DNA of 64,000 nucleotides from Gracilaria domingensis (lineage: Eukaryota; Rhodophyta; Florideophyceae; Gracilariales; Gracilariaceae): positions 62,001-126,000 of the forward strand of contig VCMS01000139.1 in assembly GCA_022539475.1 (NCBI GenBank). Direction: 5' to 3'. Positions 11,810 through 62,690 of this stretch are shown one piece after another; position 1 is the stretch's first letter; each line of letters begins with the position of its first letter. The notes beneath the pieces were generated by a model. It ran no database searches. It had not been told where the DNA came from and worked only from the letters and a program-made list of their open reading frames with translations. The position numbers and the translations under genes are program-made.

Positions 11810-11920
11810 TTAGGTGACTGGTGTCGGAACAAATTGCTTCGGCAACGGGAACCAAACCACTCGGATATCTCGTGACTTCCAAATCCTCCCTTTCCAAAAC
11901 CACTTGGTTTTTCACAAATT

Positions 11921-37140: not shown

Positions 37141-37149
37141 CACGGTGGA

Positions 37150-43985: not shown

Positions 43986-44309
43986 CTAACCAACCTTTCG
44001 AAAACCAGCTATGACATGAGCTGGGTTACTCGAGCCAAAGATGGCAGATCCTGCAACTGAAATGTTTGCACTGGCCTTCACTACTCCTTTCACAGTACTC
44101 AGTCCAATACCCCCATCCACCTGTATCCCTATTCTTGGGTACAACTCCCTTGCATGTCGCACCTTGTCAAGAACACCCTCCATAAACGCCTGTCCTCCAA
44201 ACCCTGGCTCCACCGTCATCAACAATAACATGTCTACAACTCCTTCCTTCATAAGTGCTTCTACGACCTTTATAGACGTATTCGGGCGCAATCCAACTCC
44301 ATCCTTTTA
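43986..44309 (-). pseudogene. RPE: C-terminal fragment of ribulose-phosphate 3-epimerase
   Basis: The family's second signature is clear: VVDMLLLMTVEPGFGGQAF, then IQVDGGIGLSTVKG with the catalytic Asp, and SVAGSAIFGSSNPAHVIAG of the phosphate-binding end. Only the last 105 residues of a protein of about 220 remain. Upstream the frame meets TAA at 44307-44309 and the N-terminal half is absent. The enzyme interconverts ribulose 5-phosphate and xylulose 5-phosphate. A truncated duplicate or relic. Confidence 0.88.
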
Positions 44310-44703
44310 ATTATGGCAATCCGAGTGAAGCTATAAAACCCGTTCACGTCATTTATGAAGCCAAAATGGCTCCTTTCATCCTGTATTCAAGCTCCCCGTA
44401 ACTCGTACTTTACAACTACTTTACAACTCAGGTTCGAAATCAGTTTCATTCATTGCACACTTTCTACTCTTCCACCTACCTTTCATAAAACATCATCACA
44501 CTTTGTGGCTTGTCGTCTCATACAAGCCCTATCATTCATTCAGTACAATCACATATCATACATTTCGCTCACTTTCACAAAGTGAACCATGTTCCCGTTC
44601 TGCGCTTCCCAACCGTTTGTACTTAAGTATCACTCTTTACCCCAGCAGTTCTCCGCCCCATCTTCCATTTCTATCGTCACACAAAAACATTCGAACACTT
44701 GCA

Positions 44704-45606
44704 ATGAACTCCCAGTCCGACATGCCTCCCACTCCGCCTCCGAGTCCCAGATACTCTGACGTCCTTCAGGCCTCATCTCCCGCCCGAAGGACTCGGGCCG
44801 TTATTGTTGGAAGGGGGCGTATAGGTACCATGCTGGCGAACGAAGAAGATACGGTCATTTCCGCACACGAATTCTGCAGCATGGCTGCTACCTCTCATCT
44901 TTCTGATGTACCGATACTAGTTTGTGGAAGAACGAACACCCTGGAGACCGTAATTCAGGCTTGCCCTTATTCGCTCAGAGAGAATCTCATTTTCTTCCAG
45001 AATGGAGACATCATACCATTGCTTTCGAAGCTCGGTGTGGACAAATGTTCAAAAGTGGTCCTATACGTTGGTGTCCCCTCAAGAAACGCAGCTCCGCAGG
45101 ATGGTGTCACTCCTCAAAGTCCGGATGGTCTCACTGTCGCAACAGGAAAGTGGGCCTCCAACGTTGCAGACAGGTTTAGGTCTATGGGTCTCACTTGCGG
45201 GGTTGTCGACGAAGACACATTTCTCGTAAGCTATTATGAGAAGCTCGTGTGGCTATCAGCGTTCAACATCGTCGGGGCCTCAAGAGGTTTCATTCCTATG
45301 GACGTAGTCGCTACGGAGTGCAGTACGGTTGTGCTCACAATAATGAAAGAGCTGTTCAAGATAGTTTCGCTTAAGACAGGTACTACTTTCAACGTGGAAG
45401 AGACCGTTGGGCGACTTCTTGCATATGGAAAAACTCTCGTTGGCTTCCCTACTTCTTTCTCCGACTTTTAGTTTAGGAACGCGTACTTCTACGACTTTTC
45501 CCGCCAAGAAAGAAACATTGTAGGCGGTGACCCCGCTCCTTTTCATACAAACTACGTCAACGTTGTTAAGGAAAAGTTATCCCCCTCCCCATTCCCCCAG
45601 CTTTGA
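44704..45606 (+). pseudogene. Ketopantoate-reductase-like (PanE/ApbA) Rossmann protein with in-frame TAG
   Basis: From ATG 44704. Pro-rich leader, then a nucleotide-binding turn IVGRGRIGTMLA, a second strand ending LVCGRTNTLETV, and LIFFQNGDI where PanE has its NGxG-like motif. The C-terminal helical domain contains KLVWLSAFNIVGASRGF, matching the Lys/Asn active-site helix of PanE-like proteins. TAG 45469-45471 stops the frame, but the same frame continues for 44 more codons with FRNAYFYDFSRQERN and DPAPFHTNYVNVVKEK, typical of this family's C-terminus, to TGA 45604. So the stop is probably a mutation. The reaction would be NADPH-dependent 2-ketopantoate reduction; substrate unproven. Confidence 0.65.
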
Positions 45607-45609
45607 GGT

Positions 45610-46230
45610 TAGAACACATGACTTTTCGGTGTTGTAAACCTTTTAGAGATAGTTAAACATAAAAGTTACTTTATCGAAATGACCTGTTCCTATTACATTA
45701 CTTATATTGTTCGTCCTTCTGTGGTTCAAATATGCCCCTTTAAATCCTACATCCGTTATCACTAATACTTCGCTACGATTTTGCTAGATAGAAAATGGTC
45801 ATTCCATATCATTAAAGTGCACGATACTAGTAACGAAACAAGTACAAAAATTGTGATATTTCTGAAGAACTAAGCGTTTGCATTACTTGGGGCACCCGTA
45901 TAAAGTAAGGTAAACCTTTTATGGGTTTCAACCCGTAATGGAGGTTGTTTTACTCTTCTTGATTTCTAAGCTCATGTTAAAGATATTTACAGTTTTCTTT
46001 ACCCACTTGAACCCGTACATATAATTTATGACTAAATCATCCTTTCTTTACTTCAAATCGATGCAAAAACTTCTCCTCCTAGTAACGTTTTAAAACAGTA
46101 CTACAATACCCGTATATGGTCGTTCTTAGACTCTTTTTATACTACGAAACACCTTGTGAACATCAATCACATCCTTCTCATTCGTATACCCACACCCATT
46201 TGCAAAACCAACCCTTTCGAAAGCTTTCAA
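45610..46230. other. Intergenic, AT-rich, no supported gene
   Basis: AT-rich non-coding DNA between the PanE-like and HAD-like genes. I see nothing specific in it. Confidence 0.4.
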
Positions 46231-46233
46231 AAC

Positions 46234-47106
46234 ATGTATAACTCGGAAGTTAGAGCCCACGAAGTAACTCCTCAGCAGCTGGCTAACGAAATATTCGAAA
46301 ATGGCTACGCCGTGATTAGTGAAGTTGACGGTACTCTGAAAAGAGCTGGGGAGAACATTCCTGCCGAAACAGTCAAATGCATGAAGTACATCAACGCACG
46401 CGTTGGTTTCGGAATTGCTACTGGGCGAGATATAGAGGATGCCGAGAGTTTCATGGAGCACCTGGGTGGCTACACTTTTGGCATCTCTGGAAACCAAGGC
46501 GCACGGGTGAGATTATCCAATGGTACCGAAATTGATCAGGACCTTGACAGGGAAGGCTACGAAAGATGTGCAGCCGAACTTGAGAGACTTGCACTCTCCT
46601 TAAATGAATCGCACGGACTTCACGAAGAGCGTCAACAAGCAGTGGTGAGCACTAGAAAAGACAGTGGACTCCCTAACTTCACGTACAATGGACTCTCGAA
46701 GTGGAAAACAGAAGTTCACTCCGGTATTTCAAAAGTGTTGACATCCTTTCCGAACCTGGTTGCGTACCCTCAAGATGAAAACTGTGACATAGGGGACATT
46801 CGTTTCACGAAAAATAGTGGGGCGCTAGCCTTGGTTGAAAACGACCCCTAGTTCGACACACATTTAATCGTTGCTTTCGGGAATGCTTCCAATGATGGCC
46901 CTCTATATGAAATGGCAACCCTGGCAGTTCATGTGAAGGGAGAAGACCATCCCGCAGCGGTAACATATCTTGTTGATGGCGTGGAGGACGTGCATGAGAC
47001 CATCAGAAGGGTGGCAGAACTGTACGGGTACAGAAAATGCAAGTGTCAAAGGTTTAGAAATGCTCTTGGAATTTGTTTCAAGTGCTACGACGCCTTTAAT
47101 ACTTAG
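46234..47106 (+). pseudogene. HAD-superfamily (PMM/Cof IIB-like) protein 1, nucleophile Asp replaced, one in-frame TAG
   Basis: 290 codons from ATG 46234. HAD motif I appears as VISEVDGTL: the first Asp of DxDGT, the phosphorylated nucleophile, is Glu. Motif II is GFGIATGRD. The IIB-type cap carries FGISGNQGARVR and DSGLPNFTYNGLSKW. The motif IV region is FGNASNDGPLYEMA. TAG 46849-46851 interrupts just before this region, while the paralogue at 47159-48019 reads through with Arg. Phosphomannomutase and sugar-phosphate phosphatases are the nearest functional classes I can suggest, but without the nucleophile the enzyme is probably inactive. Tail-to-tail with its paralogue, 52 bp apart. Confidence 0.65.
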
Positions 47107-47158
47107 CTATGATATGAGATCTCAGTAATAAAAGTGTCGTGTATATCTCAATACCCTT

Positions 47159-48019
47159 TTATGAATCATGGTGGTTTTTATCGTGCTGCTTTTCCTCGTA
47201 GCCGTACAACAGAGCCACCAACATAATTGTCGAATGTACATCCTCCACGCTTTCGAACAGGTTGTGTACTCCACCCGGGATACAATCTTCTTTGACGTGA
47301 ACGCCGTACACGCCTACCTCATGCAAAGGCCCGTCGCTCGAAGCACTTCCGAACGTCACGACGTCATCCGTATCAATAAATCTCGGTTCATTATCCACAA
47401 GATTTTCTCCTCCGCTTCCTTTTGTGTATCGCTTGTCCACAATTTCGCAACTTTTATCGCCGGGATAGATAACAAACGCATCCATCTTCTGCAACAGGTC
47501 CCCAATAGCAGAATCCACTTCTTCTTTCCACTGCCACAGTTTGTTGTACACGAAATTGGGAAGGCCACTATCACTTCTGGTCTCCACGAACCCCTTGTCA
47601 TCATCATTCACAATACCATACCTCCTATTCAAATCCCTTGCCAGGAACAGTAGTCCGTCAACAGTGTGGTCAAGGGTGTGATCATTGAATGCACCCTTAA
47701 TTTCCCTCTCGTCAGAGAAACGCAGGAAAGCTCCATGATTCGCCGAGACACCAAACTTATAGTCTCCGAGTCCTTCCATTTTCCCCTCCACGTCGCCCAC
47801 ATCACCCCCTGTGACAAGTCCGAAACCAACACGTTCGTCAATGAACTTCATACACTTCACAACTTCTTCTGGAATTGACTCTCCTTCTCTTCTCAACGTT
47901 CCATCAACGGAACTTAATATACCGTAACCATTGGCATATATGAACTTAGACAAGGTATTTGGTGAAATTTCCGCCAAGTCTCTCTGTTCCTCTGCCATTT
48001 TTCCTGATACAGTCACCAT
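47159..48019 (-). CDS. HAD-superfamily (PMM/Cof IIB-like) protein 2, nucleophile Asp replaced
   Basis: 286 residues, intact, from ATG 48019. Paralogue of the gene at 46234-47106. Motif I is ILSSVDGTL (Ser in place of the nucleophile Asp), motif II GFGLVTGGD, cap FGVSANHGAFLR and SGLPNFVYNKLWQWK, the motif IV region FGSASSDGPLHEVG. Shares the C-terminal ESVEDVHSTIMLVALLYGYE helix with its partner. Convergent orientation suggests an inverted duplication. Both copies lost the catalytic Asp, in different ways, so a non-catalytic role or relaxed selection is likely. Exact substrate class is unknown. Confidence 0.7.
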   Translation of the reverse strand: MVTVSGKMAEEQRDLAEISPNTLSKFIYANGYGILSSVDGTLRREGESIPEEVVKCMKFIDERVGFGLVTGGDVGDVEGKMEGLGDYKFGVSANHGAFLRFSDEREIKGAFNDHTLDHTVDGLLFLARDLNRRYGIVNDDDKGFVETRSDSGLPNFVYNKLWQWKEEVDSAIGDLLQKMDAFVIYPGDKSCEIVDKRYTKGSGGENLVDNEPRFIDTDDVVTFGSASSDGPLHEVGVYGVHVKEDCIPGGVHNLFESVEDVHSTIMLVALLYGYEEKQHDKNHHDS

Positions 48020-48333
48020 ACTGCCACAAGTACCGCATAGACAGGAACTGTATAGACTTCTCAGTTCACACTTCTCTTAAAAGCAACCTTAAGTGCAGTT
48101 TCAGAAATGTTAGGACGCTACATGTTCAATTGCGAATTGACTGGTGCCACCAATGATGTTAACGATACCGAGCATTTCGCATGTTGCAATTAGACGCAAC
48201 TGGACCAAAGACGTTTGACATTTGTTCAATTACCAGCCTGCCGCACCTTTTCTATGTTCATATGTATAGCCTTGTAATAGTATACTACTCTTAATACTCG
48301 CAAGACACACATAATTTACTAATCATCTCATTC

Positions 48334-50280
48334 TCATCCACTTCGAGGCGCTCGCAGCCTCATTATTGGCAAATCGTCATCACTACTACTCTCGAGCACT
48401 TCGGTTCTACCGGCGTCCGCTTCCACACCAATCTCCACGACCACTTGGTCTTCGTCCATGTCAACCGCCCCACCCTCCTTATCGGACAACAGTTCATCCT
48501 CCGCCTCCTCCTCCTCGTCACCATTGACAAACGTGGGTCGGAAATCCCGCACCCGATGAACAGCATCAGGTAGTGCGTAGCCCTCTGGTACCATGTACAT
48601 GTGGTATCTAACCAGCAAATCCATAGACTCGGGCCTATCCACCTTGTCCTTCCCACTTGCTGCAGCATGTGTCACATCACCACGGCCCACGAATACAGAG
48701 TACGGTGGGATGATTATCTTCTTCGCTGGATACACCTCCGACATCACTCGCAACTGTTGGTTGTTCATCCCCACCAGTTGATGGCTTCCAGCGCTCACCC
48801 AGAGAGGAAAGCCCTCTTTCCCAGAGGCCATTACAAAGTATCCGGGGTTGCCAGTATTCATTGTTTCCTTCGTAACCAGACCACTGAAGTCGGTGTGCAG
48901 CGTCTGGCGCTTGCACTTTCTCGTCGTCCCCAGAAATCGACCACCAGTTTTCGGAGTGTACATCTTCACAGCTTCCCTTTCATTGTCCCATAGTCCCAAA
49001 GCCGCAGCAATTGTACCCATTCGAACATCAAGTAAAGCACGCGACCTTACAACCCACCTGAGCTCCTCATTATCCTCCGGCTTCTCCACCGTACCCCAAC
49101 GTGTCGACATCACTCTCCCCTCAAATGGTCCATCGCTACCGTCCTTCCATCCTTCATCATCGTTGATTATTGAACAAACGACTTCTGTTCCTCTCCTTTC
49201 CGTATATCCGGCATCGCTCCATACTCATTCTCGAAGAAGTCCACCAACTTCCCCGACACATCTCCGAACTCCCGAACTTCTTCCAACTCCTCCCATTTAG
49301 GGACACCATTATCCGTCGCAAAGCCATCAAGCACGCAATATCCATTCTGCCTTAGCTCAGCTTGCATTCGGGCGAAGAACATTTGCCCAAATTCGTCATG
49401 CTCCTTCGCAGCAACCCACAGCACCTCTTCATCATCCATACCTGTCGGTCGAGTACGAGGATACTGCATACCAAATGTCTCCGCCCGTAGGCGATGTTCA
49501 GCCCTTGCAGCGTGCCAAAAGACAAGATGGTGTACATCTCTGAGATTCGAGACACTTAGCAGCTCCGACCTATGTCCCTTCGGCAAGTGAATGACTCTGA
49601 GCCAGGGGTCCTTGTGCTCAATTACGATCTTCCCTTGCCATTCCTGCGGTCTCAGCCTGGCATACCCGCACCATGATGGGTTCGTGGGCCATCATATGGT
49701 CTCCTCAACAAGTCCGTGCTCCTCAGATTCCGGAAGAGCTGTAGGTAACTCGTCATCAAATGACCCCCCACCTGTCTCTTGCTGATCGTCTGGCGCAGCA
49801 TCTTTCTCGACGGTGACAACCCGTGGAACTGTCACAGAAAGAAGCTCTCGTCATCCACAAATGCAGAACTGCCTGCGTTCTCTGCATTCGCTCCCTCTCC
49901 CAATGCCACGAACTGAACCTTCATCGACCTTCCTCTCAGCACATGTTCATTTAGTTGAGACATCAGGTCATCCGGTGTCATGCTGTTCAGAGTAGATCTC
50001 ATCTGTTGTGTGAAAGTCTTTCTCCGTTTCTTCCTCGGCGGAGCCCGCTGTTCTTCTTCAGAGCTATCCAGAACTTCTATGGCACCTCGATTTCGGCCGT
50101 GTTCAATTTCCCTATAACTCACCTGCGCCCGTTCTCGTGCACTTCTTCGCGGCTCCCCTTCTTCACTGGCAGATGTTGCAGCAGCAGCAGCGGGAGTCCT
50201 CCTCTTGTCACGGACTGCTTCACTGGTGCGGGGGCGGAATTACCTTGAGCATCGTCCGCAATCGATTCTGAACGGAAGTC
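48334..50280 (-). pseudogene. Fe(II)/2-oxoglutarate-type dioxygenase with nuclear-type N-terminus (cassette gene), frame-disrupted
   Basis: The C-terminal 259-residue frame has the double-stranded beta-helix signature: HxD in QTLHTDF (residues 73 and 75), distal His in GDVTHAAASG (149) and the 2-oxoglutarate-binding Arg in LLVRYHMYM (169). Upstream, NGYCVLDGF resembles the start of phytanoyl-CoA/PHYH-type dioxygenases, and an N-terminal basic stretch PPRKKRRKTF (about 50020-50045) looks like a nuclear localisation signal. The coding path runs 50280 to 48334 with frame changes near 49832 and 49172 and TGA at 49692-49694. By family analogy (TET/JBP, AlkB, PHYH) it could oxidise a modified base or a side chain; substrate unknown. 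It is the downstream gene of the left-hand unit, after the ParB-like gene. The acidic C-terminus ends at 48334. Confidence 0.65.
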
Positions 50281-50335
50281 GTGGCAGTTCTAATTGAGTT
50301 CGTCCTGCTCCGAACACGCGGCAAAGTGTTGAAGT

Positions 50336-52240
50336 TCACAACTTGTCCCAAAAGGAACTGATACACAGCTGCGTTGTTGTCTGGTCTTCAACGTCATCTT
50401 CATTCGATGGAGCAGAAAGACTGACTTCGCGTTTCAGGAACACTTCCATGGACTCTTCCTCGTTCAGTTCATTCCTCACTGCTCTAGCCGCGCGGAACAG
50501 AGACACTGCTCTATCATAAAAGAAACCTCGAACCTCCTCAAAGCTTTTCCATTGCTTTGTCTTCGTCGACTTGCCCTTCAATAGAAACATCTGAAGACAA
50601 TCAAGAATGAAGGAAAACTCCTCGGCATCCAAAACATATAGCGGAGTATGGACAGATGTGTGAGACCTATGTCACTCACAGTCTCACATATATCCTCGAA
50701 ATGGGCCAGCATTCCCTCACGAGACATGAGTTGCAGGGCGACATTGGCATATCTCAGGTACTGACGCTCTTGCACAGTCCCAATCAGTTGGCTCTCCTTC
50801 AACACTTCTGTCACTTCTGCAGGATCCACGTCTGCCGGCGTCACCCCCTCAACATCTTCAATTAGAATGGCGACCACACTAACTATAGAGTGTATCTTGT
50901 CTGCAAACATCATCCTTCGCATGGTACTCGTCGACTCATTGAGGTACGAAGCAACACATAACAATTCCTTCATCCCAATGGGCCTCCCATCTCTTCGTAT
51001 CAGCAGATTGCAACGCCAAAACTTGGCTAATCGCTTCCACTTCGGTGCACCAGTCGCTGCCAAATATTGTATAGCTTTCAGACGATGCAAACCATCTACA
51101 ATGAAGCACTTCTTCGTTAGGCGTCCCTTGTCAGTATCCCTCTCTCCCGTAGTAGCATCTTGTAAGGCCACCACTGGAGAACCCATCGACTGCAATATCC
51201 CCCGCTCCTCCATACTCTTCACAAGGGCTTCAACGTGGCGTTTACTTACTCCACGGAGTAAATTGGGCGGAGTGTCCACCAGAGTGATGTCAACAGTAAC
51301 AACAACCATCCGGTACTGATTGAGGTTCACCTTTGGTACCTTCTGACGAATTCGTCTGTACGTCTTGCTCCGAGTAGGTTCCCTTGTGTTCCAGACCGCT
51401 CGCCAGAAACACTTGAACGTGCCATTCTTGCGGACAGAAGCACAACGTCATCGTCCTGCTGCTCCGCAGTTTCTGGTGCAGTTTGGGGTACAGATGGACC
51501 AGCTCCTTGCGCGGATTGCGCATCCGCGTCTGGAAGGGGACCTTTCATGATCTCATCTTCCTCCTCTTGCACAGCCGTCCCCTGCTGAACCGTCTGTTTC
51601 GACGCAGAAGATTCCCCTTGTGTCGACGGTCTGATTCATCGCAGGAGAAGCCCTTTTCGACGCAGTGGGCTTCGTAGCGGAGGTAGACTTTGTTTGACCT
51701 GTCCGCTTCGTAGCTGGGGATGCTCTCGTCTCCATAGACCGCTTCGTAACAGACGACGGACCTGCCCGCGGAGGTGCTACTGATGCGCTACCTCTCGGTG
51801 TTGATGAACTTCGAATTGGCTCCGTGCGGCTTGTCGGCGTCATCACCTCACTCATAGCGCTCACCGTTCCTCGCTTCGACGCCGGAATGCTGGCTGCCAC
51901 CGGTTCCATCATTTTCTCATCCCAAGGAGCGGCCGTCCGGAGATCCTGGATATATTGTGGAAGATCCAGCCCTCCGCCCGGTAAGGGTAGAACGTCTGAC
52001 CGCTTCGACTGATGAGAATATTATGAACCACCACAAGACCTGGTCCAATTGCTTCCCGTGCAACTCGCGGCGTAGAACACTTCCAATTCCATGCAACAAC
52101 GCTTCCCCGACTATCACCTTTCCTTCATCCTCAATATCCATCTGCAGAGAAACCCGCATTCCACCTTGCAATAATCGAGTGCTCCGCCGAGTGCGAGGAG
52201 TCACGCTTTGCGTACGCTTTCGAACACGAGTTGGCTTCAT
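50336..52240 (-). pseudogene. ParB/Srx-like domain protein (cassette gene), frame-disrupted
   Basis: ATG 52240 begins a basic Arg/Thr-rich N-terminus (MKPTRVRKRTQSVTPRTRR). A Ser/Thr/Pro/Ala-rich linker follows, then a ParB-like nuclease-fold domain around 51330-51000: VSKRHVEALVKSMEERGIL, later CFIVDGLHRLKAIQYL, which matches the family's hhhhDGhHRxxA box. A helical C-terminal region ends in SFWDKL at 50336. Frame changes occur near 51915, 51590, 51340 and 50640; the one at 51340 sits in a CAAAGG run where one extra A would restore the frame. ParB domains bind DNA or hydrolyse nucleotides in bacterial partition and in phage or mobile-element proteins; this is a eukaryotic-context copy. It diverges from the methyltransferase-SET gene across the palindrome array. 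Confidence 0.7.
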
Positions 52241-52661
52241 GTTGAACAGCTATTGCAGTGAAAGTGTATATCAACAATACGCTCGCTCGGACGATACAAC
52301 AACGGAGGCGAGCCTTTAAAAGGCGACTTACGCTGGCACCCCCGCTTTCGGCAGCTCCTCCCAGCGCACTGCCAGTCTCGTCCGTGTCCTGTCCGTGGCC
52401 GCTCGCACCTGATTGTACGCTTTAGAGTCGTGGAGTTCGCGCAATGATGACTCACGCGAGCAATGGTCGCGTTCTCTAATCATGCTCTTCAAATGCTTTG
52501 CATAGTAGTCAAGAGTACACTCATTCACTTCCATGTACAGCCTACTCCCGCCAATACACGTGGACAGCGGCGCCAACGTACCGGCGGCCGGTGTAGCGAA
52601 ATCACTGCGCGGCGGCGTGTTTTGGGAGGTCCCGGGAAGGCACCGGAATGTGGCCAGAACT
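52241..52661 (-). promoter_or_regulatory. Left promoter region of the cassette
   Basis: Upstream of the ParB-like gene. Contains the left inverted arm (52298-52389), which includes a TATA-like CTTTTAAAGG about 75 bp before ATG 52240. The same arm, inverted, precedes the methyltransferase gene. Confidence 0.55.
52298..52389 (-). repeat. Left arm of a 92-bp inverted repeat flanking the palindrome array
   Basis: Runs from CAACAACGGAGGCGAGCC to CTCGTCCGTGTCC and matches 53631-53721 in reverse complement with few mismatches by eye. Confidence 0.9.
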
Positions 52662-52731
52662 GCCCGCGGGCGGGGGGGTCGGTCGTGTTAGGGTAGTACC
52701 CTAACACGACCGGACCCCCCCGCCCGCGGGC
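52662..52731. repeat. Palindrome 1
   Basis: 70-bp near-perfect palindrome with GCCCGCGGGCGGGGGGGTCG at the outer end and a TTAGGGTAGTACCCTAA apex. Confidence 0.95.
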
Positions 52732-52766
52732 ATAAAATCGCACATTTTTCAAAAAATCGCCCAAAA

Positions 52767-52842
52767 CGTGCCCGCGGGCGGGGGGGTCGGTCGTGTTAGG
52801 GTACCTACCCTAACACGACCGACCCCCCCGCCCGCGGGCACG
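52767..52842. repeat. Palindrome 2
   Basis: 76-bp palindrome, outer bases CGTGCCCGCGGGCGGGGG, apex TTAGGGTACCTACCCTAA. Confidence 0.95.
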
Positions 52843-52849
52843 TTCTGGC

Positions 52850-53100
52850 CACATTCTGGCACCCTCCGGAGACCTCCCAAAACACTCCTCCGGCACTTCC
52901 TGTACCCACTGCGTCACCTTAGTGCACCATCCCGTCATCTCACCCTCCAGACACTCCCTAATTTCCGGGATGGTGCACTGAGGTGACCATCCCGTCTTCT
53001 CCACCCTCCAGACACTCCCTAATTTCCGGGATGGTTCACTGAGGTGACGCAGTGGGTACAAGAAGTGCCGGAGGAGTGTTTTGGGAGGTCTCCGGAGGGT
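52850..53100. repeat. Central spacer with tandem and inverted sub-repeats
   Basis: Two copies of CTCCAGACACTCCCTAATTT / CCGGGATGGTNCACTGAGGTG lie in tandem (about 52945-52985 and 53005-53045). The outer edges (CTCCGGAGACCTCCCAAAAC and its complement) mirror each other at 52865-52885 and 53075-53100. Confidence 0.85.
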
Positions 53101-53115
53101 GTCAAAAAATCGTCC

Positions 53116-53200
53116 AAAACGTGCCCGCGGGCGGGGGGGGTCGGTCGTGTTAGGGTAGGTACCCTAACACGACCGACCCCCCCGCCCGCGGGCACGTTTT
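53116..53200. repeat. Palindrome 3
   Basis: 85-bp near-perfect palindrome of the same family, flanked by AAAACGTG / CACGTTTT. Confidence 0.95.
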
Positions 53201-53230
53201 GGGCGATTTTTTGAAAAATGTGCGATTTTA

Positions 53231-53305
53231 TGCCCGCGGGCGGGGGGTCCGGTCGTGTTAGGGTACCTACCCTAACACGACCGACCCCCCCCGCCCGCGG
53301 CACGT
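53231..53305. repeat. Palindrome 4
   Basis: Same unit with TTAGGGTACCTACCCTAA apex; small differences in G-run length between arms. Confidence 0.93.
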
Positions 53306-53339
53306 TTTGGACGATTTTTTGAAAAATGTGCGATTTTAT

Positions 53340-53412
53340 GCCCGCGGCGGGGGGGTCCGGTCTTTAGGGTAGCACCCTAACACGACCGACCCCCCCTGCC
53401 CGCGGGCACGTT
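53340..53412. repeat. Palindrome 5
   Basis: Same unit, less perfect; the left arm has lost a few bases near the apex (GGTCTTTAGGGT). Confidence 0.9.
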
Positions 53413-53630
53413 CTGGTCACATTCCGGCGCCTTCCGGAGACCTCCCAAAACACTCCTCCCGGCACTTCCGGCAGTGATTTCGCTGCACACGCCGTGCACA
53501 TATATCAAACTAGAGAAAACTAGCGCTTCACACCCACTTGATCCGCGACTTTTAGCACAATACGGGACCGTTGCAATAGCTCCGAATCGCGACGTGGCCG
53601 ACACGCGACGCTATCGCTCCGAGCGGACAC

Positions 53631-53721
53631 GGACACGGACGAGACTGGCAGTGCGCTGGAGGAGCTGCCGAAAGCGGGGGTGCCCAGCGTAAGTCGCCAT
53701 TAAAGGCTCGCCTCCGTTGTT
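53631..53721 (+). repeat. Right arm of the 92-bp inverted repeat; likely promoter of the methyltransferase-SET gene
   Basis: Reverse complement of 52298-52389, ending about 55 bp before ATG 53775. Contains CATTAAAGGCTCGCC, the counterpart of the left TATA-like box. Confidence 0.85.
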
Positions 53722-53774
53722 TGCGCTGAAGCGATGATTCCACCGATGTTGGAGAGGAGATACATCCTATCGAC

Positions 53775-56700
53775 ATGAGTGCTCCGCCTCCGGCGTTCCA
53801 TGCATATGTCAGACTTTTCTTGGTTCTTCTCGANNNNNNNNNNNNNNNNNNNNNNNNNNNNNNNNNNNNNNNNNNNNNNNNNNNNNNNNNNNNNNNNNNN
53901 NNNNNNNNNNNNNNNNNNNNNNNNNNNNNNNNNNNNNNNNNNNNNNNNNNNNNNNNNNNNNNNNNNNNNNNNNNNNNNNNNNNNNNNNNNNNNNNNNNNN
54001 TGCGAAAGAGTGTTGTGAATACAAACCTGTGGAACAGCGATACTTGTAACGAAGCTTCTTGACAAGAAGGACGGGGATGAGGACCAGAGACTGCGCGATT
54101 TTTTCCTTCTCTCTATGGATATGGGTATATACCTACCGGTGCGATGCCTGGTTGGTTATTTCATGACCAGGAGAAAGCAGGTTCTGAAGACGACAGTGTT
54201 CATCCCACCAACAGCTGTGAACCCATTTGAGGTCGTTATATACTTATCATACCTCGGCCACATAATGGGAGAGAACGACAACATCCGAATGATGAAGAAG
54301 AAACAACCGAAAAAGAAACGAAAAGTGAACCATGCACCAGCTGTGTACATACCCACTTTTACGTCGTTCTCCAAAGACAACTGTGATCGACTGGGATTCG
54401 GTATCAGTGAGGTCGTATGGGCATGGAGTTGTTTTGCGGCTCATCTTGGATACACGAACGTTCAGCACATGGTGAAACCATACATTTACATGAATATGCA
54501 GACGTTGAAGTATACAGCGCTAGAGACACGGGAGTCTGGTTATGCCCCGCCGAGCCAGAGTACTCGATTCAACACAAAGGATGTGCCACAGAGCAGTACT
54601 AGTGGATCGGTGGAGACCTTGAGTGATGAATGCGATACAAACCTGCGAATACTGGCTAAGGAGTTTTTGACAGACCTCGAAACCATATGCACCCACGATA
54701 GCCTCTATAGCTTACGGGTTGATCAGATGAGGAACTGGATAGAGTTTTCGGAGATACGGATGGATACCGTATCTAGCTCTGACTCCGGTGAGTTGCCTGC
54801 TCGATTTCAGAAGTTTTCGGAGTTGCTATGGAAACCGATACAGGATATGCGTCATGCGGCAGGGTTCCATGTCGGCATTCACGCGAAACCTGATATTGAA
54901 CTGACGAAAACCCCTAAAACTTCCGGTAATGCCGAACCTTCTTCGACCAAGTCTGCCCCACCCCCACCTCGTCGAGAGTATATGAACCTCGTGAGCTCCG
55001 ATAGCGACGAGTTCGAGAAGCCGGTGAATCTTGCGGAGCATGAATCTCGGGTTGCTGGTTACAACATCCAAAAGACTGGTATTGAGCCGCCCATGAAGGG
55101 GATATCCAGTCTCCTTCGAATGAATATGGACAAGGTGTGGAAGGGGATGAGAAAGTCACACTTTGTAGCGTACAACTGTGACATGAAGGACCTGAGGCAC
55201 ACACACGAAACGTTTGTGAATCAGAGTGAGATTTTATGGGGTGAGGCACAGCTTGTCCTAACAGACCCTCCCTTTAACACTCGAAGGAAGAGGAACAAAC
55301 GGAATAGTGGTCACGATGTCTTCAGTGAGGAAGACATGATCCGTACGGCTGACTTAATAAGTTCCGCGCTTCGGTCAGGTGGGCACTTCATTATATTCTG
55401 TGCCATGGCACAGTTTCATGTGTGGCACAGGATACTTTCGGAAACGGCGAGTACGAAAGATGAAGCTGGAAGCGAAGGTAAACCAGAACTCATGCCTTCG
55501 TTTAAAGTGGATGCGAATCCACTGGTGTTCATCCGGGATCGCAGTAATGTTGGAGGGAATCCACGGAAGTTTGGGATACAGCCCGTAACGGAGTACGCCG
55601 TTCATGGGGTGAAGCGTGGATTGCGACCATCGGAGGAAGCCAGTCTTACTCCATTTGAGGAGAACAATTTCATTCCTTCCACTTTCCCGGCTAACAGGAA
55701 TGTAATTGACCGGGTGCCAAACCGAGGGCGGGGGAGTGGTTGACATGGAAGGTACATGAGCCAGGTAGTTCAGTACCAGGTGGGCAGTACATAAGACCGG
55801 AGCAGAAGTCGAGGGAGTTGATGAAGGAGTTGATATGTCGCTTCACAAGACCGGGTGATCTTGTCATGGACATGTTCGCGGGAACTTTTTCTACGGGTAT
55901 GGCGTGCCTATCGCTGACAAAGCATAGGAAGTTCTTGGGGTGCGAGAAGAATAGGCCATGTTTCAGCCATGCGAAGCACCATCTAACGACTCTTATGGCC
56001 GAAGTTATTCGCGGGGGAAGAATGACATCCTGGTTGAACAGGAGGTGGTGGATGCGGCTTCAACGACCTATGAACGGGTTCCACATCGGGACCGAGGTCG
56101 GCTTGAATGGGAGGCTCCATTTGGTTACCCCCAGTACCAAGTGATGCCTGGACATATTACTCAGTTCCTAGGAAGATACTGGAAGGACTGGGACTTTGTC
56201 GAGAAGTGTGGACAGCGTACTGTAGATCTTTGGGAGGGGAAGTACCGAGGAGCTCTGAATCTTATGGATATGCATATGCTGTTGACTGTTGAAGCCAATC
56301 GCTATCGCTTACATGTAGCATCTTCTAAGATTCGACATCCCCGTGCTGGTATGGGGGTGTTCACGGAACATAAGATATTGGCTGGGGAAACTATCTGTCA
56401 TTTCTATGGAACTTTGGTATACACGGATCTGACGAACCGGAAGGAAAGACACTTAACGTATGGAAGTGGCTGTCTCGGAGCAAATCCAGTGCGGTACAAG
56501 TTGTTTTCTATGATGGTCACTGTGACTGGTACGGAGTTTCTGCACCTGAGAACAGACCAGAACAGGCTCAGGATAGAAAGGAGAGCGAAGTCTACATTGT
56601 CCCGGCGCCTTTTTGTATCGGGGGCTACATTAACGACGCCGGATATCATGCCGGGGATCCCGATTTATCGGAGCCCCGGTCAAACAGGACTCGAAGTGCC

Positions 56701-56868
56701 AATGTGCAGGTGGTGGAAGCGAAGTCCGTGATACAGTTCAATTCAGACCTTTCTAACTATGCTCTACTTCGTTGTAGAGCTGTAAGAGATATTGAGAGGG
56801 GCGAAGAGTTGTATTTCAACTACGGAGAGCAGTACGCCTGGGACTGGGCTCTGACATTGGAGCAATAG
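53775..56868 (+). pseudogene. DNA N6/N4 methyltransferase (beta class) fused to a SET domain; frame-disrupted, contains an assembly gap
   Basis: Candidate ATG 53775; the N-terminal part runs into the gap at 53834-54000. After the gap there is an N-terminal region with an exact SV40-type nuclear localisation signal PKKKRKV (54307-54327). Methyltransferase motif IV is LVLTDPPFN (Asp at 55264), then LRSGGHFIIFCAMAQF. The SAM-binding motif I is DLVMDMFAGTFSTGMACL (55858-55910), so the motif IV-before-I order marks the beta class. A SET domain follows (56331-56868) with PRAGMGVFTEHKILAGETIC, and RDIERGEELYFNYG near the end. Frame changes occur near 54040, 55730, 56014 and 56575. The last three lie in G5, G5 and A3 runs where one more base gives a continuous protein. 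DPPF suggests adenine-N6 as target, which is inference. Confidence 0.75.
53834..54000. other. Assembly gap (167 N)
   Basis: Run of N within the 5' part of the methyltransferase-SET gene. Its true length is unknown. Confidence 1.
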
Positions 56869-57117
56869 ATGAGTTCAGTACCAAATAGAAAGTAAATATG
56901 CTTGTGAGTGTTGCAGCTGCCTGCAATACGCGTTGTTGTACATGTACACTGGAGCTCTTCATCTGTAACGGCGATATTTGCGACCCATTGGGCACCTCAA
57001 ATTCCTAAAAAGCAGGAACTGCGGAGTCTCCCGGAATATCTGAACCATGCACCCCCCCCCCCCCCCCCTCCCCCCTCCCCAACAATTTCGTTTCATTACC
57101 CTGTTTATCTCCACAAC
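56869..57117. other. Short spacer with a C homopolymer tract
   Basis: Between two same-strand cassette genes. Includes a long run of C with few interruptions at about 57051-57080, which may be a polymorphic or error-prone site. Confidence 0.6.
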
Positions 57118-59514
57118 ATGGGTATAACGCCGAGAAAGCGAAATAGTACGCAGCGGAACAAGAGTGGACAGAAGAAGAGAAGAGCATCGGATGATACGAA
57201 TCAGGCTACAAGCACCGCACTTTTTAAACGGAAGTCGTCCTCGACGAAGGAGAGAGTCAGTGGGCGTCCTTCTACAGGACTCTCTCGCCCATCTCGCAGC
57301 GGAGCGTCTTCCGGGATTGCGTCAAGAATTCGTGGATCAGCGAACGATGTCGTGCCGTCAACTGCCGATAATGCAAATCGTGCATCTGTCTCTGCTCCTC
57401 AAGAAGATGAGGTAACTCGGCCCAGCGGGTCAGGACAGGAGGGCATGACAACTGGAACTGAAGAGGTTCGTATGACACCAAAACCTTCATGTCCCCGGCC
57501 GATATCGAAGACCGGAGCTACTGGGGCGCGGGTTACGCCGCCCAGTGGATCTGGACAACAAGGGACAATGACGAGAAGTCGTGAGAGTCCTAGTATATTA
57601 AGATCGTCACGTCCATCCCTCTCTTCTAGAACTGGGGCCGCTATGAATCGTATCATGCCTCGCAATGGGTCCGGACAAGGGAGAAACACAATAAGAAATC
57701 GAGAGACAACTGATAGACGAGTTACTTTTCGACCTTCCCCTCTTTCCAGAGCGGGGGCCGTTGCAGCTCGTACGAGGCCCAATTCATCTGATATACCATG
57801 CCATGGAGGAGGACAGACACGGGAGTTGGAGCTCGGAGCCGTGCCAAGGGTGGACACAGAATGTCTGCAGCCTCTCGTGTCTAAGGCTATGGCACATGAG
57901 GACAGTTCCGATAACGAAATAACACCGAATCCTGCGGCATTACCGGGGCCTGTCGCCGAAGAAGCTAGGGAAATAACGGAAGATATCCAAACTGGTGTGA
58001 ATTCAAGCTCTATGAACAGACCTGATCTTTTAAATGAACTGAATTGCTTGAAAGAAAAGGTTAAGACGCTACAAGAGGACTTGATGGTTCGGGGGATTCT
58101 AGTGAAGGTCGCCCAAGAGCAGAGTACGGCTTTGAAAAAGAGGCTTGAAGAGAAGGATCTAGTCATTGAAGGGCTAAGAGGGGCACTGAAACAGGAGGGA
58201 GATAAGAGTACACGTGCTGGTGAACCTGGGCAGACAGGTCGAAAGAAGCATAAAATTGAGGTGTGCGACGAGTTTCGAGGGGTTGCTCGAGCAGTGTATC
58301 ACAACATGCTGACGTGGGCAAGGAGAGAAACAAGTGAGCTATGGCTCGAAGGTGAGTCGCTCACCCGAAATTGGGGTAACCGTGCCGAGAAGGTGGAAGA
58401 CGCAACTGAGAGTGGGGAAGGGCTTATTGAGCCGGAGGAAGGTGGTTCATACATGGTTCCTAAAAACCCCGTGGAGCTCTTGGGCAGTTTTGGCATGTTC
58501 ACACCTTCGGTAGAGGGGGGGCCAGATGCTTTGCTGAAGAAAATGGTTGAAAGCGAGTTGAAGGAGTTGAGCTGGGAAGGTATTAGAAAAGCATCTCTTA
58601 CCGACAGGTGTATACTGGAACTTTGTGCAGATATGTGCCTTAGGCAGAGAATGCGGCAGACCATGAGTGACGTCGTGGGCGTTCGTAAGAGAAATACGAG
58701 GGATAAACTATTTCTGCTCCTGGGGTACGATCTGATTTGGAGAAGAACAAAGCTGGTAGAAGAGAATGCTGACGAACTCACAATGCAGTTGAAGGAAGCG
58801 CAGGAGAACATACTGCGTCTTGACGAAAATGGTGTACCGAACACTTCATGGTGGAGAAAAGCCCCATTTGTTCGTCTAAAGTACTCCAATGCGGACAATG
58901 TCGAGGATATGCCGACGGAAGATCAAGACTTGTTCTTCCGAAACCGTGTCGGGGTACAAGTGCTGAAGGAGTTTATTGGGTATGATGTGGAAGACAAGGA
59001 TACGGGCACCTTTTTAGATGGCACAATACTGTTGCTCGCACGTTTGGACGCTTGGGTGTTGACGGTTGTGAGCCTTCTAAGTACGGATGTGTCAAGGGGT
59101 GGCCAGAGACAGAAACTGTTTACAAAGAAGTTTGCCGAACTGCTACCTCTGTGTTTAAAGAATGTTCTGGGGGATGTTAGGCAACGTGTCTTGAGGACCA
59201 ATTCCAGCGAGTTTCATAATTTTGGAACGACAACGGAAGATTGGACTAAGGTTCTTGGTAATGACATGAGAGAGGCTACATTTGGATATCGAATGCCGTC
59301 GAACGGAAGACTTTACCTCACTGTGAAAGAACAATTTTTTATTGACAGTGTGAGCCGAAGATTGGGGTCTATTAGCGATTGCTTCGTTGGTGAATGCGAG
59401 GAAGGGGATATGGAGTTCAAGGAAATGGACATGAACGATTTCGGAATTAACACAGGATCACAAGAAAAGGCACCACAAGGTGAACATGTAGAGGATGGAG
59501 CCCTTAATGTTTAA
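57118..59514 (+). CDS. Large hypothetical coiled-coil protein of the cassette
   Basis: About 798 residues from ATG 57118 (the frame is open 210 bases further up, but through a C-run translated as poly-Pro). The N-terminus is basic (MGITPRKRNSTQRNKSGQKK), then come repeated blocks of Ser/Arg/Gly with a PSGSGQ motif about 40-45 residues apart (around 57420, 57540, 57665). A coiled coil follows (LNELNCLKEKVKTLQEDLM near 58030-58090), then a globular C-terminal half with DVVGVRKRNTRDKLFLLLGY, WWRKAPFVRLKYSNAD and FLDGTILLLARLDAW. No known domain is recognised. The C-terminal half has the mixed hydrophobic pattern of a folded domain and deserves structure comparison. Frame intact, in contrast to its neighbours; convergent with the transposase, overlapping by 4 bases. 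Confidence 0.8.
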   Translation: MGITPRKRNSTQRNKSGQKKRRASDDTNQATSTALFKRKSSSTKERVSGRPSTGLSRPSRSGASSGIASRIRGSANDVVPSTADNANRASVSAPQEDEVTRPSGSGQEGMTTGTEEVRMTPKPSCPRPISKTGATGARVTPPSGSGQQGTMTRSRESPSILRSSRPSLSSRTGAAMNRIMPRNGSGQGRNTIRNRETTDRRVTFRPSPLSRAGAVAARTRPNSSDIPCHGGGQTRELELGAVPRVDTECLQPLVSKAMAHEDSSDNEITPNPAALPGPVAEEAREITEDIQTGVNSSSMNRPDLLNELNCLKEKVKTLQEDLMVRGILVKVAQEQSTALKKRLEEKDLVIEGLRGALKQEGDKSTRAGEPGQTGRKKHKIEVCDEFRGVARAVYHNMLTWARRETSELWLEGESLTRNWGNRAEKVEDATESGEGLIEPEEGGSYMVPKNPVELLGSFGMFTPSVEGGPDALLKKMVESELKELSWEGIRKASLTDRCILELCADMCLRQRMRQTMSDVVGVRKRNTRDKLFLLLGYDLIWRRTKLVEENADELTMQLKEAQENILRLDENGVPNTSWWRKAPFVRLKYSNADNVEDMPTEDQDLFFRNRVGVQVLKEFIGYDVEDKDTGTFLDGTILLLARLDAWVLTVVSLLSTDVSRGGQRQKLFTKKFAELLPLCLKNVLGDVRQRVLRTNSSEFHNFGTTTEDWTKVLGNDMREATFGYRMPSNGRLYLTVKEQFFIDSVSRRLGSISDCFVGECEEGDMEFKEMDMNDFGINTGSQEKAPQGEHVEDGALNV

Positions 59515-62500
59515 GGCTGTACAAGATCAACGTGCTCAGTTGGTCCTTCATCTGAATCATGATAGAATCGATTGATGTAGAATCGGTGTTGAAACCATTG
59601 AAGTGGAGGACAAAAAGGTGGAGCAGGGTAGTTTGATCGAACAACATGGACAGTTCCCTGTAGTGCAGAAGCCGGAACCATCCCGTACCAAGGAGTTAAC
59701 TCTACGATAGTCTCCGCTTTGGAATGACGAGGGAACGGAAGAGTGTGGTTCTTTTCATCGTTTGTAGCCCACCGTAAAGATATGCATTTCAATATGTGGT
59801 CGATGTTTGTCGCGGGGGGTAAAACTTCGAAATACCGGACGAATGCCACCTCTGGTGCGGTAAGTGCAGAATCAAGGAGAGATATTCGAATCAGAGCGAC
59901 TACCTGGGCAACCCAAGTCTCTGAATCTTCTCCGCTTACCAATACAGTGGAAAACTTTGGCTTTCTACTGGGACCAAATGCTGGAGAAGCGAAGACACGT
60001 TGGATGATGGGGTATTTGGGTCGTCCCAGCTTAAGTGCCTTAGAAGACGAATCGAAGTGTTCAAGAGTCGGAACGAAACCGCCTTTCACGAGGGCCGAAT
60101 TCACCAGAGTTATCCTTGTCTTTTCTGGGAAGTATGTAATAGAGTGCTGATCCAGTGCTTCTTTCACGAGACTGAGGAAAGGAGGAAGGGCCTGTTCACC
60201 AATCTGATCAAGAATCGACCTTGTGTCCGTACTTGAGAACATCTCTCTAACAGCAGTCCATGTTTTTGAACTGGACATACTTGAAACACAATGTTGAAGA
60301 GCTCGTAAAGTGAAAGAACGCCCTCTCATTGCAAACCGAGGAAGCTGTGTGGAAGTTCCTGGTAAACCTGGATTACGCTGTTAAGGAGTATTGCCATTCC
60401 ATTGCTTTCTAACATGTCCGTGCTCAATGGAGCGAATAGTCTCCTCCACAGCCGTTGCTGTTCTTCTGGACGTCTTTTTGTAGTGTCTCTTAAATAGCAG
60501 GTGTGCATGTTCGTATATGCCTGCGTCGTAGTACTTGATACTTCCCAGACGGCGAATATCGTCCACGAGATGATCGAGAAGATGAAACTTCAGAGTTCCC
60601 AGTCTGGAGGGATGAAAATCCGCCAGAGTCTTTGTTGCGGAACGCTTGAAGGCTTCAATCTCCGAACGAAGACACAGGAGACAGCTTTCAGTCCAATACG
60701 GGTCACGATTGTATCTGAATAAGGTCGAGAGCAAGTCCGAATACTGAGAGAAAACGGTTGTGATTGGGGCAACGTCCTGTTCTCCACAGCATATGTCAAA
60801 GAATGCTCCTATGAAGGGAAAGACCATGTCAAGTGCTTTGTAGTTTTTGGCCTCCAGCATTCCACGGAGACCGTCTTTCGTGAAGATACCATTCAAAGAT
60901 TTGCCTTTCTCCTGCGTGGAGAAATCGATATGTAAACCTTTGGCAGGAGAATCGCGTTCTATGGCAGCTAGAATTGCGTTTGCATGGTTGAGGAGTTGGG
61001 TGCGTATCGTTCGAAATGAACGCGATGCAGATGTTCCTAATGTGGTGCACAGGGTGTCTGACTGCAGTCTCTCGATTGTGGCCGTTTTTATCAACTTTGA
61101 GATGCCGAGATGCAAGTTGTGTAATGGTTCGAATGAGAACAGACTGTATGGAGACAATCCCGGGATCATTCCAAGGCTTACGGAAGTTTCGAGGAACGAA
61201 GGAATGAGAGATATGGAATTTGAACGCATCAGAGTATCCGCTTGAGATCTCCTCTCCCTCGCACGACGTGGACGTCTTTCCGCCTCGTCTTTTTGTGCAT
61301 GTTGCAAGATAGCTGTGTATGTCTTTCGGATGCTTTTCGTGTGCTTCTGAGAACGTCCGTTGAATGAGGTGGGAATAGGACTGCATAAAGATGAGCGAGG
61401 GGTTTTGCATCTATGACACGGGCTTTCCGTTTTGGTCCCATGAAGAATGGACAGAATGTCCTTAGCCTCAGGAATATCCGCACAATAACTTGCAAGCAGA
61501 GGATGGCACACTCGACTTAGTTTTTCTTCGCCGATGAACTGAAAACCTTTCTGCGTGAGATTTAGAATGGGCTCCAGGACTTGACGAAGAGATTCTTGAA
61601 GGATTTGCATCCTGGACTCGCGTAGAGACTTGCTAGAAACAAATGGCATTGCGTCTGCTTCAGATGCGGAAACCTCGATCAGTGTGGTAGGGAAGTATGC
61701 CACTACTGTGAGGTCATCACGGATACACTTACGGCGAAGCTCGTCGGAGAAGTTGAGAAATATGAGGTGAAGAGGATAGGCGGTAACCGATGTTTGCTTT
61801 AGAGTTGTTGAAGACTTATCGGTGTATACCTGCAGAAGACCTACGAAAGATTCACTGTAACTTATTTCTTGGGAGTACCACACTATTCTACTATCCAAAG
61901 AGCCCATGACCATTTCCTTAAGTTTTGAGGTGGCGTCTCTTGCGAGAGAGCCCGACATGGGGTGAGATATTTTCGTGGAGTGGGTCTGAGGTATAGGGTG
62001 GAAGAATATGTTTTCGTTGTTAGCCAACTGGAGCTGTTTCACAAGTGTCTGAACGGGGTCTCTCGTGTAGAGGGTGGCGCTGAACTTACATCCTTCTGGC
62101 GAAACAGTTCTGCGATTGAAACCGTCCTTTGAGGCGTATCGTTCGAAAATGGCGTTCTTCAGTTCTGTCCAGCGCTTGGAACTTGTTATGGTCTCGTTGA
62201 ATCGCTTTTGCGAGAATCGCGGGTCCCGAAGTAGCCCAATTAGCTCGTCCGCCTCACGATGACCAAGGTTGGAAGCTACTGAAGCCAGAAAAACCGTGAG
62301 ATAATCCATATGCAAATCACCAAGGGCCTCCTCAGAAGGCACTGGGCCGGAACTGCTTCCGTGTTCTCGCTCTAATGACGCAGGACCAGGGGAAGGAGAA
62401 ACACAATGCGAAGTGTCCGGAATGGGAGGGGCGCACGGAGTGGGGTCGACGATGTCCTCGGACACTGGAGGCTCGGGAAGGCGACAAGGGGCAGTGACCG

Positions 62501-62690
62501 TTTCGGAAGATGCGGGCGCGGGCGCGGAAAGCTTGAGACGCTTGCTTCTCCGAATGGCCCGGCTATTGTCGTCTTCCAGCGCTGCTTTCAGACGAAACGG
62601 GCAATGGTTGACATGCTGTTGAAGAGATAAGACTCCTCGGCGAGTAACGAAGGGGCACCCACGCTTCTTATGTGTACAGTAGTAGACCAT
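59511..62690 (-). pseudogene. Plavaka-like (Tnp2/CACTA-related) transposase with one in-frame TAA
   Basis: From ATG 62690, 1060 codons. N-terminal zinc-finger-like segment with YCTHKKRGCPF and HVNHCPFR; basic RRSKRLKL (nuclear signal). The core contains LLQVYTDKSSTTLK and a segment TAYPLHLIFLNFSDELRRK, the pattern of Plavaka transposases (SDKT ... YPVYLTxGNIxxxxRRxP). It is followed by LTVVAYFPTTLI and ESPCHRCKTPRSSLC, a CXXC zinc site. The C-terminal region has YYDAGIYEHAHLLFKRHYK. TAA at 60381-60383 interrupts near the end, and the same frame goes on through LTAPEVAFVRYFEVL and ALQGTVHVVRSNYP to 59511. I infer that it mobilises the cassette. Plavaka is best known from fungi, so its presence here is notable. 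Confidence 0.8.

Follow-up and report, generated by a model that had tools for sequence, protein, structure and literature searches.

The stretch of DNA analysed here, called the window, is 64,000 nucleotides of the red alga Gracilaria domingensis (positions 62,001 to 126,000 of contig VCMS01000139.1, here C139), and the genes of interest in its right part encode a DNA methyltransferase fused to a SET domain, a ParB-type domain fused to a dioxygenase-like domain, a large coiled-coil-like protein and a Plavaka-type transposase. These genes are parts of one large, high-copy Plavaka-type DNA transposon. Comparison of copies places the element at 41,985 to 64,524, a length of 22,540 bp, with its right end at C139:126,524, which is 524 bp past the window. 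The original prediction had drawn the boundaries at 48,334 and 62,690 and counted five separate genes; the repeat in fact continues past 48.3 and 62.7 kb, and in intact copies the five become four main genes, the ParB and dioxygenase parts being one open reading frame (ORF) of 1,308 codons in contig C296. The window copy is degraded relative to intact copies, with frameshifts in the ParB-dioxygenase, methyltransferase and transposase genes. The main features, in window coordinates, are these.

41,985 to 42,001, plus strand: left terminal inverted repeat (TIR), 14 of 17 bases matching the inverted right end of the same copy
48,334 to 52,240, minus strand: ParB-dioxygenase fusion gene, frameshifted in the window copy, a single open frame in intact copies (P0002)
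48,334 to 49,691, minus strand: Fe(II)/2-oxoglutarate (2OG) dioxygenase-like domain of that gene, with an HxD...H motif, without hidden Markov model (HMM) or fold support
50,578 to 51,447, minus strand: ParB/Srx-type domain of the same gene
52,298 to 53,721, no strand: palindromic centre with inverted arms, a putative bidirectional promoter and possible ParB-binding centre
53,734 to 56,868, plus strand: methyltransferase-SET fusion gene, broken in the window copy by frameshifts and an N run at 53,834 to 54,000
57,118 to 59,514, plus strand: large coiled-coil-like protein, without Pfam match
59,511 to 62,690, minus strand: Plavaka transposase gene, frameshifted near 60,380 in the window copy, intact as P0003

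The ends were mapped by comparing 10 copies at both ends. Nine of the right-end loci extend far enough to show the right boundary, which falls at 64,522 to 64,526 in 8 of them; in the ninth, L014, the BLAST match ends at 64,477, yet its end shows the same terminus. The left boundary falls at 41,983 to 41,985 in 4 of the 10 copies (C91, C269, C323 and C46, the end piece of the last being inverted); C255, C49 and C108 lose similarity on that side at 46,904, 48,125 and 42,500 respectively, and the three remaining copies were followed less far. The TIR of the window copy is an imperfect 17 bp, and the outermost bases of the element are CGTCTGT..ACAGACG. A pattern search allowing up to 3 mismatches finds 576 left and 563 right ends in the alga's own genome (77.9 Mb in 680 contigs), with none for the reversed-pattern control. 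Joining nearest ends gives 47 pairs using 44 distinct right ends, spanning 6.4 to 24.3 kb with a mean of 14.7 kb, the pairs being drawn from the first-listed sites and from right ends only through contig C65. As a rough estimate, with every copy taken at that mean size, the family would account for about a tenth of the genome, for which the published assembly size is 78 Mb in the available part of PMC10388701; Gracilaria genomes are also treated in PMC12502185, likewise available in part.

The genome was also searched with the five window ORFs, and since only the best candidates were scored, all of the counts are lower bounds: at least 76 matches to the methyltransferase, 135 to ParB, 132 to the dioxygenase, 56 to the transposase and 52 to the coiled-coil protein. 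A count by eye puts 43 of the 76 listed methyltransferase matches as free of in-frame stops over the matched part. One order and orientation of the genes is seen again and again among these matches. ParB lies divergently upstream of the methyltransferase in 36 of the 76 listed, with two wrong arrangements giving zero, and the coiled-coil gene lies downstream of it in 20 of the 76; counted from the other side, 20 of the 52 listed coiled-coil matches stand behind a methyltransferase on the same strand within 4 kb. The dioxygenase follows ParB in 62 of the 135 listed ParB matches, and a convergent transposase follows the coiled-coil gene in 7 of the 52. Four wrong orders used as controls all scored zero. 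Scored by partners, the window copy is the only one of the 76 methyltransferase matches listed to have all four; 6 have three, 17 have two and 29 have one. Among named proteins, those nearest to the ParB-dioxygenase protein likewise come from Gracilaria domingensis (P0006 at 89% and P0007 at 92%, over 78-79% of the query), which moves the element out of the fungal setting that the original prediction had in mind and into a red algal host.

Two further observations concern copies as they appear in the assembly. The right 271 bp of the element recur, 97% alike, at C139:129,452-129,722 (L029:3452-3722), 3.2 kb outside the element, as another truncated or nested copy. Nine contigs (C1, C40, C124, C138, C173, C215, C317, C352 and C429) all have a dioxygenase match 1-2 kb in from their start, oriented alike in every one, which suggests assembly breaks inside the element repeat.

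Target-site duplications (TSDs) were sought in the flanks of 25 of the 47 end pairs, 16 initially plus 9 picked as long or gene-bearing. A matching 2-bp TSD is found in 14 of the 25, where chance would give 1/16 each (P about 3 × 10−11). The result depends on size: 12 of 14 copies up to 15.4 kb have the TSD, against 2 of the 11 that measure at least 19 kb. Three further long copies, the window copy, C91 and C269, have none (0/3), and among the copies whose flanks were read none combines the full 22.5-kb length with a matching TSD. The size dependence fits assembly chimeras of near-identical 22-kb repeats, or ectopic recombination. An N gap in the centre was considered as a general cause of missing TSDs and rejected, as C34 has no N in the 1.4 kb of its centre that was read, yet has no TSD. 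Two TSD-flanked copies show what travels inside. C28:55,738-71,110 (TSD TT/TT), sampled in three 801-base stretches, has sequence of the centre, the methyltransferase (query residues 8-550 of 574), the coiled-coil gene and the transposase, with internal deletions, and C6:458,664-480,015 (TSD GA/GA) has ParB and dioxygenase matches plus transposase sequence, its right end lying several kb farther out than expected, probably through a nested insertion. C28 and C6 hold cassette genes, and therefore the genes travel within the TIRs. In a 10.3-kb TSD-flanked copy, an internally deleted version of the same element, some of the ParB-dioxygenase gene survives along with the centre and the transposase. 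The idea that the 10-kb elements are a basic Plavaka that received the cassette is out for the one copy read, where the ParB gene and the centre are still there as cut pieces.

The proposal that this is mobile DNA is thus borne out by many copies in the same gene order, by TIR ends and by TSDs on 12 of 14 short and medium copies, and a search for further copies with conserved order and sharp boundaries, the comparison on which the original prediction had staked itself, returned them. Its expectation of TIRs with target duplications held for the TIRs, which lie at the true ends, and for most short copies; on 12 of 14 long copies the duplications mismatch.

The transposase was rightly called Plavaka-like. 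P0003, intact in C591, has 1,059 aa and scores 68.2 bits to Plavaka PF18759 (cut-off 26.3). Both the transposase domain and a TSD of 2 or 3 bp (here 2 bp) are traits of the Plavaka superfamily (CMCT clade). A further trait is C(2)C and H(3-4)H between the catalytic residues; CHRC and an HxxH, picked out by eye in P0003, are possible candidates for it. Plavaka termini are TGT..ACA in PlavakaA and CATCA..TGATG in PlavakaB, according to the available part of PMC12730594. CGTCTGT..ACAGACG fits neither, and therefore the element is filed in neither. For the coiled-coil-like protein at 57,118 to 59,514, the scoring of 7,991 candidates gave no homologue with E ≤ 0.001.

The methyltransferase and SET parts are, as had been predicted, one protein: P0001, 1,045 aa, intact in L007. 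N6_N4_Mtase (PF01555) aligns with 56.9 bits over residues 506-743, and motif IV stands ahead of motif I with DPP[FY], an order and motif that we take to mark a beta-class N6/N4 DNA methyltransferase. This part also matches phrog_67 and has DpnA and CcrM as PDB relatives. SET (PF00856) aligns with 32.3 bits over profile positions 1-105 of 105 (cut-off 22.4), and a profile search of the PDB with the SET part gives KMT5A, EZH2, KMT2C and EHMT2. The protein also contains PKKKRKV, presumably an SV40-type nuclear signal. Its methyltransferase activity and base specificity are predicted from these matches, with 6mA likelier than 4mC as the written mark because of the DPPF/DPPY motif. The structure model of the whole protein was too poor for fold comparison (mean pLDDT 34.0). 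In L005 (C564), the methyltransferase frame continues, by eye, into pogo/DDE-like transposase sequence, a nested insertion in the SET region.

Across the palindromic centre, the ParB-dioxygenase gene diverges from the methyltransferase-SET gene, and the forecast of two units diverging from a palindrome-rich centre with like arms describes the locus well. P0002, from C296, has 1,305 aa and includes a nuclear-type basic stretch, PPRKKRRK. Predicted-structure comparison supports the ParB N-terminal fold (ParB/Srx superfamily) for the ParB part, and by analogy its predicted function is CTP binding and parS-like loading. The C-terminal half is plausibly a dioxygenase, judged from its motif; the HxD...H triad is present in 5 of 5 diverged sequences and the distal R in 4 of the 5. 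The centre itself has two inverted arms that are 95% alike, and between the two start codons it has four inverted repeats, nearly perfect and with arms reaching 39 bp, counted with spacers up to 8 bp (the zero-spacer count is 0). The repeats have the common core GGTCGTGTTAGGGTA, which occurs 8 times in the window, all at 52,681-53,268. This layout suits a bidirectional promoter, and by analogy only, it may be a ParB loading site.

How far the pairing of the two genes is conserved can be asked of diverged relatives. P0004 is 41% identical to the methyltransferase-SET protein over 97%, and P0005 is one protein with a ParB-like part (by eye), a degenerate methyltransferase and SET. P0008 and P0009 retain the ParB-dioxygenase fusion at 32 and 29% identity, and in a genome search with P0009, all 39 of the 39 loci scored hold both halves. 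Sorted by match span and frame length, 26 of these belong to the main family, 12 to a second and 1 to a third. Among these loci, sequence was read for stretches of C140 and C20 only; in C140 the dioxygenase core of the second family has 47% identity over 150 aa. In 7 of the 12 second-family loci, a divergent upstream methyltransferase, assigned by match span, lies at 3.2-3.7 kb. The divergent pair thus recurs in the second family, and therefore the writer-eraser pairing would have been kept through large divergence.

The methyltransferases fall into groups as well. N6_N4_Mtase matches in the genome (the best 150 of 328 candidates) form at least 2 groups, 40% alike where read; the C12 methyltransferase domain, of the second group, is 40% identical to that of P0001, and among 129 rows sorted from the best 150, 32 have a distinct match span, with C41 probably main-family by its length. 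SET follows the methyltransferase in 59 of the 93 rows of the main type, 1 of the 32 with the distinct span, 3 of 3 in C382 and 0 of 1 other, with zero for the upstream control. SET matches of at least 49 bits, 8 of the best 150, resemble ordinary host genes. In C382, three stop-free frames of 1,169-1,170 aa, at 10,484-11,890, 35,738-37,141 and 110,684-112,090, have a partial N6_N4_Mtase and then SET; they make up a third type of methyltransferase-SET protein, which may resemble the P0005 fusion. Viral contigs and bacterial and archaeal genomes gave no confirmed close relative, in a weak search with two short peptide patterns each.

The left arm of the element carries further ORFs, those from 43,989 onward being cargo; the stretch 43.2-49.2 kb is unbroken in C269, C91, C315 and C108.

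42,426 to 43,451, minus strand: left-arm coiled-coil-like ORF, without Pfam match above cut-off
43,989 to 44,306, minus strand: ribulose-phosphate 3-epimerase fragment (PF00834, 86.4 bits, profile 108-198 of 198)
44,359 to 45,471, plus strand: ORF without family match
46,036 to 46,851, plus strand: HAD-type hydrolase (PF08282, 34.1 bits)
47,159 to 48,076, minus strand: second HAD-type hydrolase (PF08282, 23.2 bits)

The cargo from 43,989 to 48,076 is of metabolic type, with the epimerase fragment and both HAD hydrolases, and has the look of genes captured from the host. Outside the element, the window has signs of other mobile DNA: a Gypsy-type integrase with a C-terminal chromodomain at 5,541-6,857 (rve 46.4 bits, Chromo 27.2 bits), a tnp2-like transposase at 27,681-29,723 (Transposase_21 28.0 bits, below the 28.6 cut-off), perhaps of another CACTA-type element, and hAT-type transposase remains at 31,905-33,833 (DUF659 37.0 bits, hAT dimerisation 21.6 bits).

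Selection was estimated by pairwise pN/pS, which is 0.34 for the methyltransferase part (9 sequences), 0.48 for the transposase N-terminus (11), 0.78 for one of the HAD genes (8) and 0.97 for the coiled coil of the left arm (6), values that we give little weight because many copies are dead after insertion. As for the host, the C5-methyltransferase profile PF00145 has no match in the genome, its control having matched in 10 of 14 genomes; exons were matched singly, and an intron-cut gene could escape. Given this null result, the likelier target of a DNA-mark eraser would be the N-methyl mark that belongs to the element itself. Among red algae, Cyanidioschyzon and Galdieria are reported to have DNMT3 (PMC9998398, in its available part).

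Our reading, held with moderate confidence, is that this 22.5-kb red-algal Plavaka-type cut-and-paste transposon, of which many copies are shorter, encodes an epigenetic circuit of its own. Mobility has good support, and the writer-eraser function is strongly inferred from the domains and motifs. The methyltransferase-SET protein would be a dual writer, placing a DNA methyl mark and a histone-lysine mark together at one site. In this scheme the ParB domain would load on the palindromic centre, possibly spreading along the element, and bring the dioxygenase there, which would remove methyl marks by oxidation. With writer and eraser on one bidirectional promoter region, the element could set its own state, either erased, and so open to expression and to transposase access, or marked. 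The complete two-layer version is more doubtful, and we put it forward tentatively: DNA base and histone marks written by one protein, a ParB-clamp dioxygenase that loads, spreads and erases, and a private heritable on/off state for each family in a host lacking C5-methylation.

Several results weigh against this epigenetic-circuit reading. The dioxygenase half is the weakest link. It has no family match in Pfam, PHROGs or NCBIfam, so that of the profile searches proposed originally N6_N4_Mtase, SET and Plavaka succeeded and this one failed, and of the predicted DNA and chromatin modification the methyltransferase and SET stand by domain and the dioxygenase is left plausible from its motif. 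The Tet_JBP profile has no Pfam match in 3 members, and a genome search with it was also silent, but its control matched nowhere. The dioxygenase part of the structure model has pLDDT <50 and no fold match, which at that pLDDT is uninformative; one second-family sequence lacks the distal arginine; and pN/pS at the dioxygenase end is 0.87 (11 sequences), near neutral, giving no support for constraint. ParB binding at the centre is a prediction. Among the listed methyltransferase matches, 23 of the 76 have no partner, and only 2 of 14 long copies examined have a matching TSD, the window's own being among the failures. The single SET in the 32 rows of the second methyltransferase group means that dual writing may not be universal, although the SET matches are the best 150 of 311 candidates, so weaker SET domains of that group may be missed. 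Finally, 5mC changes are reported in Gracilaria dura and Gracilariopsis in the available part of the review PMC9861306, which conflicts with a genus free of C5-methyltransferase.

The alternative that survives best, though we consider it unlikely, is self-restraint. In this account the writer marks the element's own ends or centre, transposition proceeds only on transiently unmarked DNA, such as newly replicated DNA, and the dioxygenase resets the mark, so that the enzymes would tune copy number and not counter a host system. Writer and eraser are indeed encoded together at a common centre, and no host C5-methyltransferase was found that would need countering, but an element with 576 and 563 detected ends does not look restrained, and the placement of the mark is itself a prediction of this account.

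Hypermodification, which we regard as improbable, would have the dioxygenase oxidise a base or its methyl group to yield a base modified still further, on the pattern of phages or base J, with the cargo sugar-phosphate enzymes perhaps feeding the pathway. The epimerase fragment and two HAD hydrolases are within the element, and TET/JBP enzymes hypermodify elsewhere (PMC12730594, in part). Set against this, the 9 element ORFs scanned include no glycosyltransferase, the epimerase is a fragment, and the two left-arm ORFs with pN/pS estimates are neutral or weakly constrained.

A little less probable again is a restriction-like or exclusion system, with ParB as an NTP-regulated nickase that together with the methyltransferase attacks unmarked rival DNA, the element itself being protected. 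A bacterial ParB-adenine-methylase fusion with nicking activity is on record (PMC5512222, in part), and P0005 unites the ParB-like, methyltransferase-like and SET parts, but the ParB here is fused to a dioxygenase-like domain, and nuclease activity of the ParB part is putative. That the genes are chance neighbours or nested elements we think very improbable and reject as a general explanation, because for all that the flanks of the window copy, C91 and C269 mismatch as TSDs and nested insertions such as that in L005 occur, the order is fixed in many copies with zero in the four wrong-order controls, TSD-flanked units hold the genes, and the pairing repeats in the diverged family.

Returning to the self-encoded circuit, the question is what it resembles. 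Spm TnpA acts sequence-specifically on its own silencing, and both it and the VANDAL anti-silencing proteins are known as regulators, not as a writer-eraser pair. For the VANDAL proteins the likeness, as relayed in passages of PMC12730594, is that a transposon protein acts sequence-specifically on its own silencing. The same passages describe the TET-positive PlavakaB of Agaricales, which shares the Plavaka transposase, the 2- or 3-bp TSD and a dioxygenase proposed to work against silencing; that system is fungal, with a TET/JBP dioxygenase and CATCA..TGATG termini, whereas the Gracilaria element has a ParB-fused dioxygenase-like domain without TET/JBP match, its CGTCTGT..ACAGACG termini, an added methyltransferase-SET protein and a red algal host. 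HarbingerS and MuDR with SET, also relayed there, similarly encode a SET histone methyltransferase in a transposon, with no fused DNA methyltransferase or eraser mentioned in that text.

Closer by host are the giant En/Spm families of Chondrus crispus (Kojima et al. 2013, through the available part of PMC6431247). These elements, likewise from a red alga, are CACTA-related, measure 16-20 kb and have 4-5 ORFs; they may be of the same lineage. The Plavaka giant repeats of Amoebidium have some genes that match only dinoflagellates or red algae; they differ in having many tyrosine recombinase genes, and the available part of PMC11244446 does not mention methyltransferase-SET or ParB-dioxygenase proteins. 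On the enzyme side, bdelloid N4CMT (PMC8885841, in part) is also a bacterial-type N6_N4_Mtase in a eukaryote tied to histone methylation, but it is a host gene with a chromodomain and SPPY, and the Gracilaria enzyme is transposon-encoded and SET-fused with DPPF/DPPY. Phage and bacterial ParB-methylases (phrog_67; PMC5512222, in part) likewise partner a ParB-like domain with an adenine-type methyltransferase and are a possible source of the module; the bacterial one is described there as one protein without SET or dioxygenase, unlike the two divergent genes of Gracilaria. In open-access papers, with Repbase Reports outside the scope, we recognised no description of a methyltransferase-SET or ParB-dioxygenase transposon.

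Transposons with single epigenetic enzymes are already known; in this element a DNA methyltransferase is joined directly to a methyltransferase of histone type, and a candidate eraser with a ParB guide faces it across a common promoter region. The family has more than 560 detected ends of either type and, if the functions hold, would be a natural high-copy system in which to ask how marks on DNA and on histones are tied together, whether N-methyl marks on DNA function in a eukaryote, and whether a clamp of the bacterial partition type was recruited as a eukaryotic targeting device. A second family that shows this pairing opens these questions to comparative testing, and the methyltransferase-SET and ParB-dioxygenase enzymes could serve as parts for epigenome editing.

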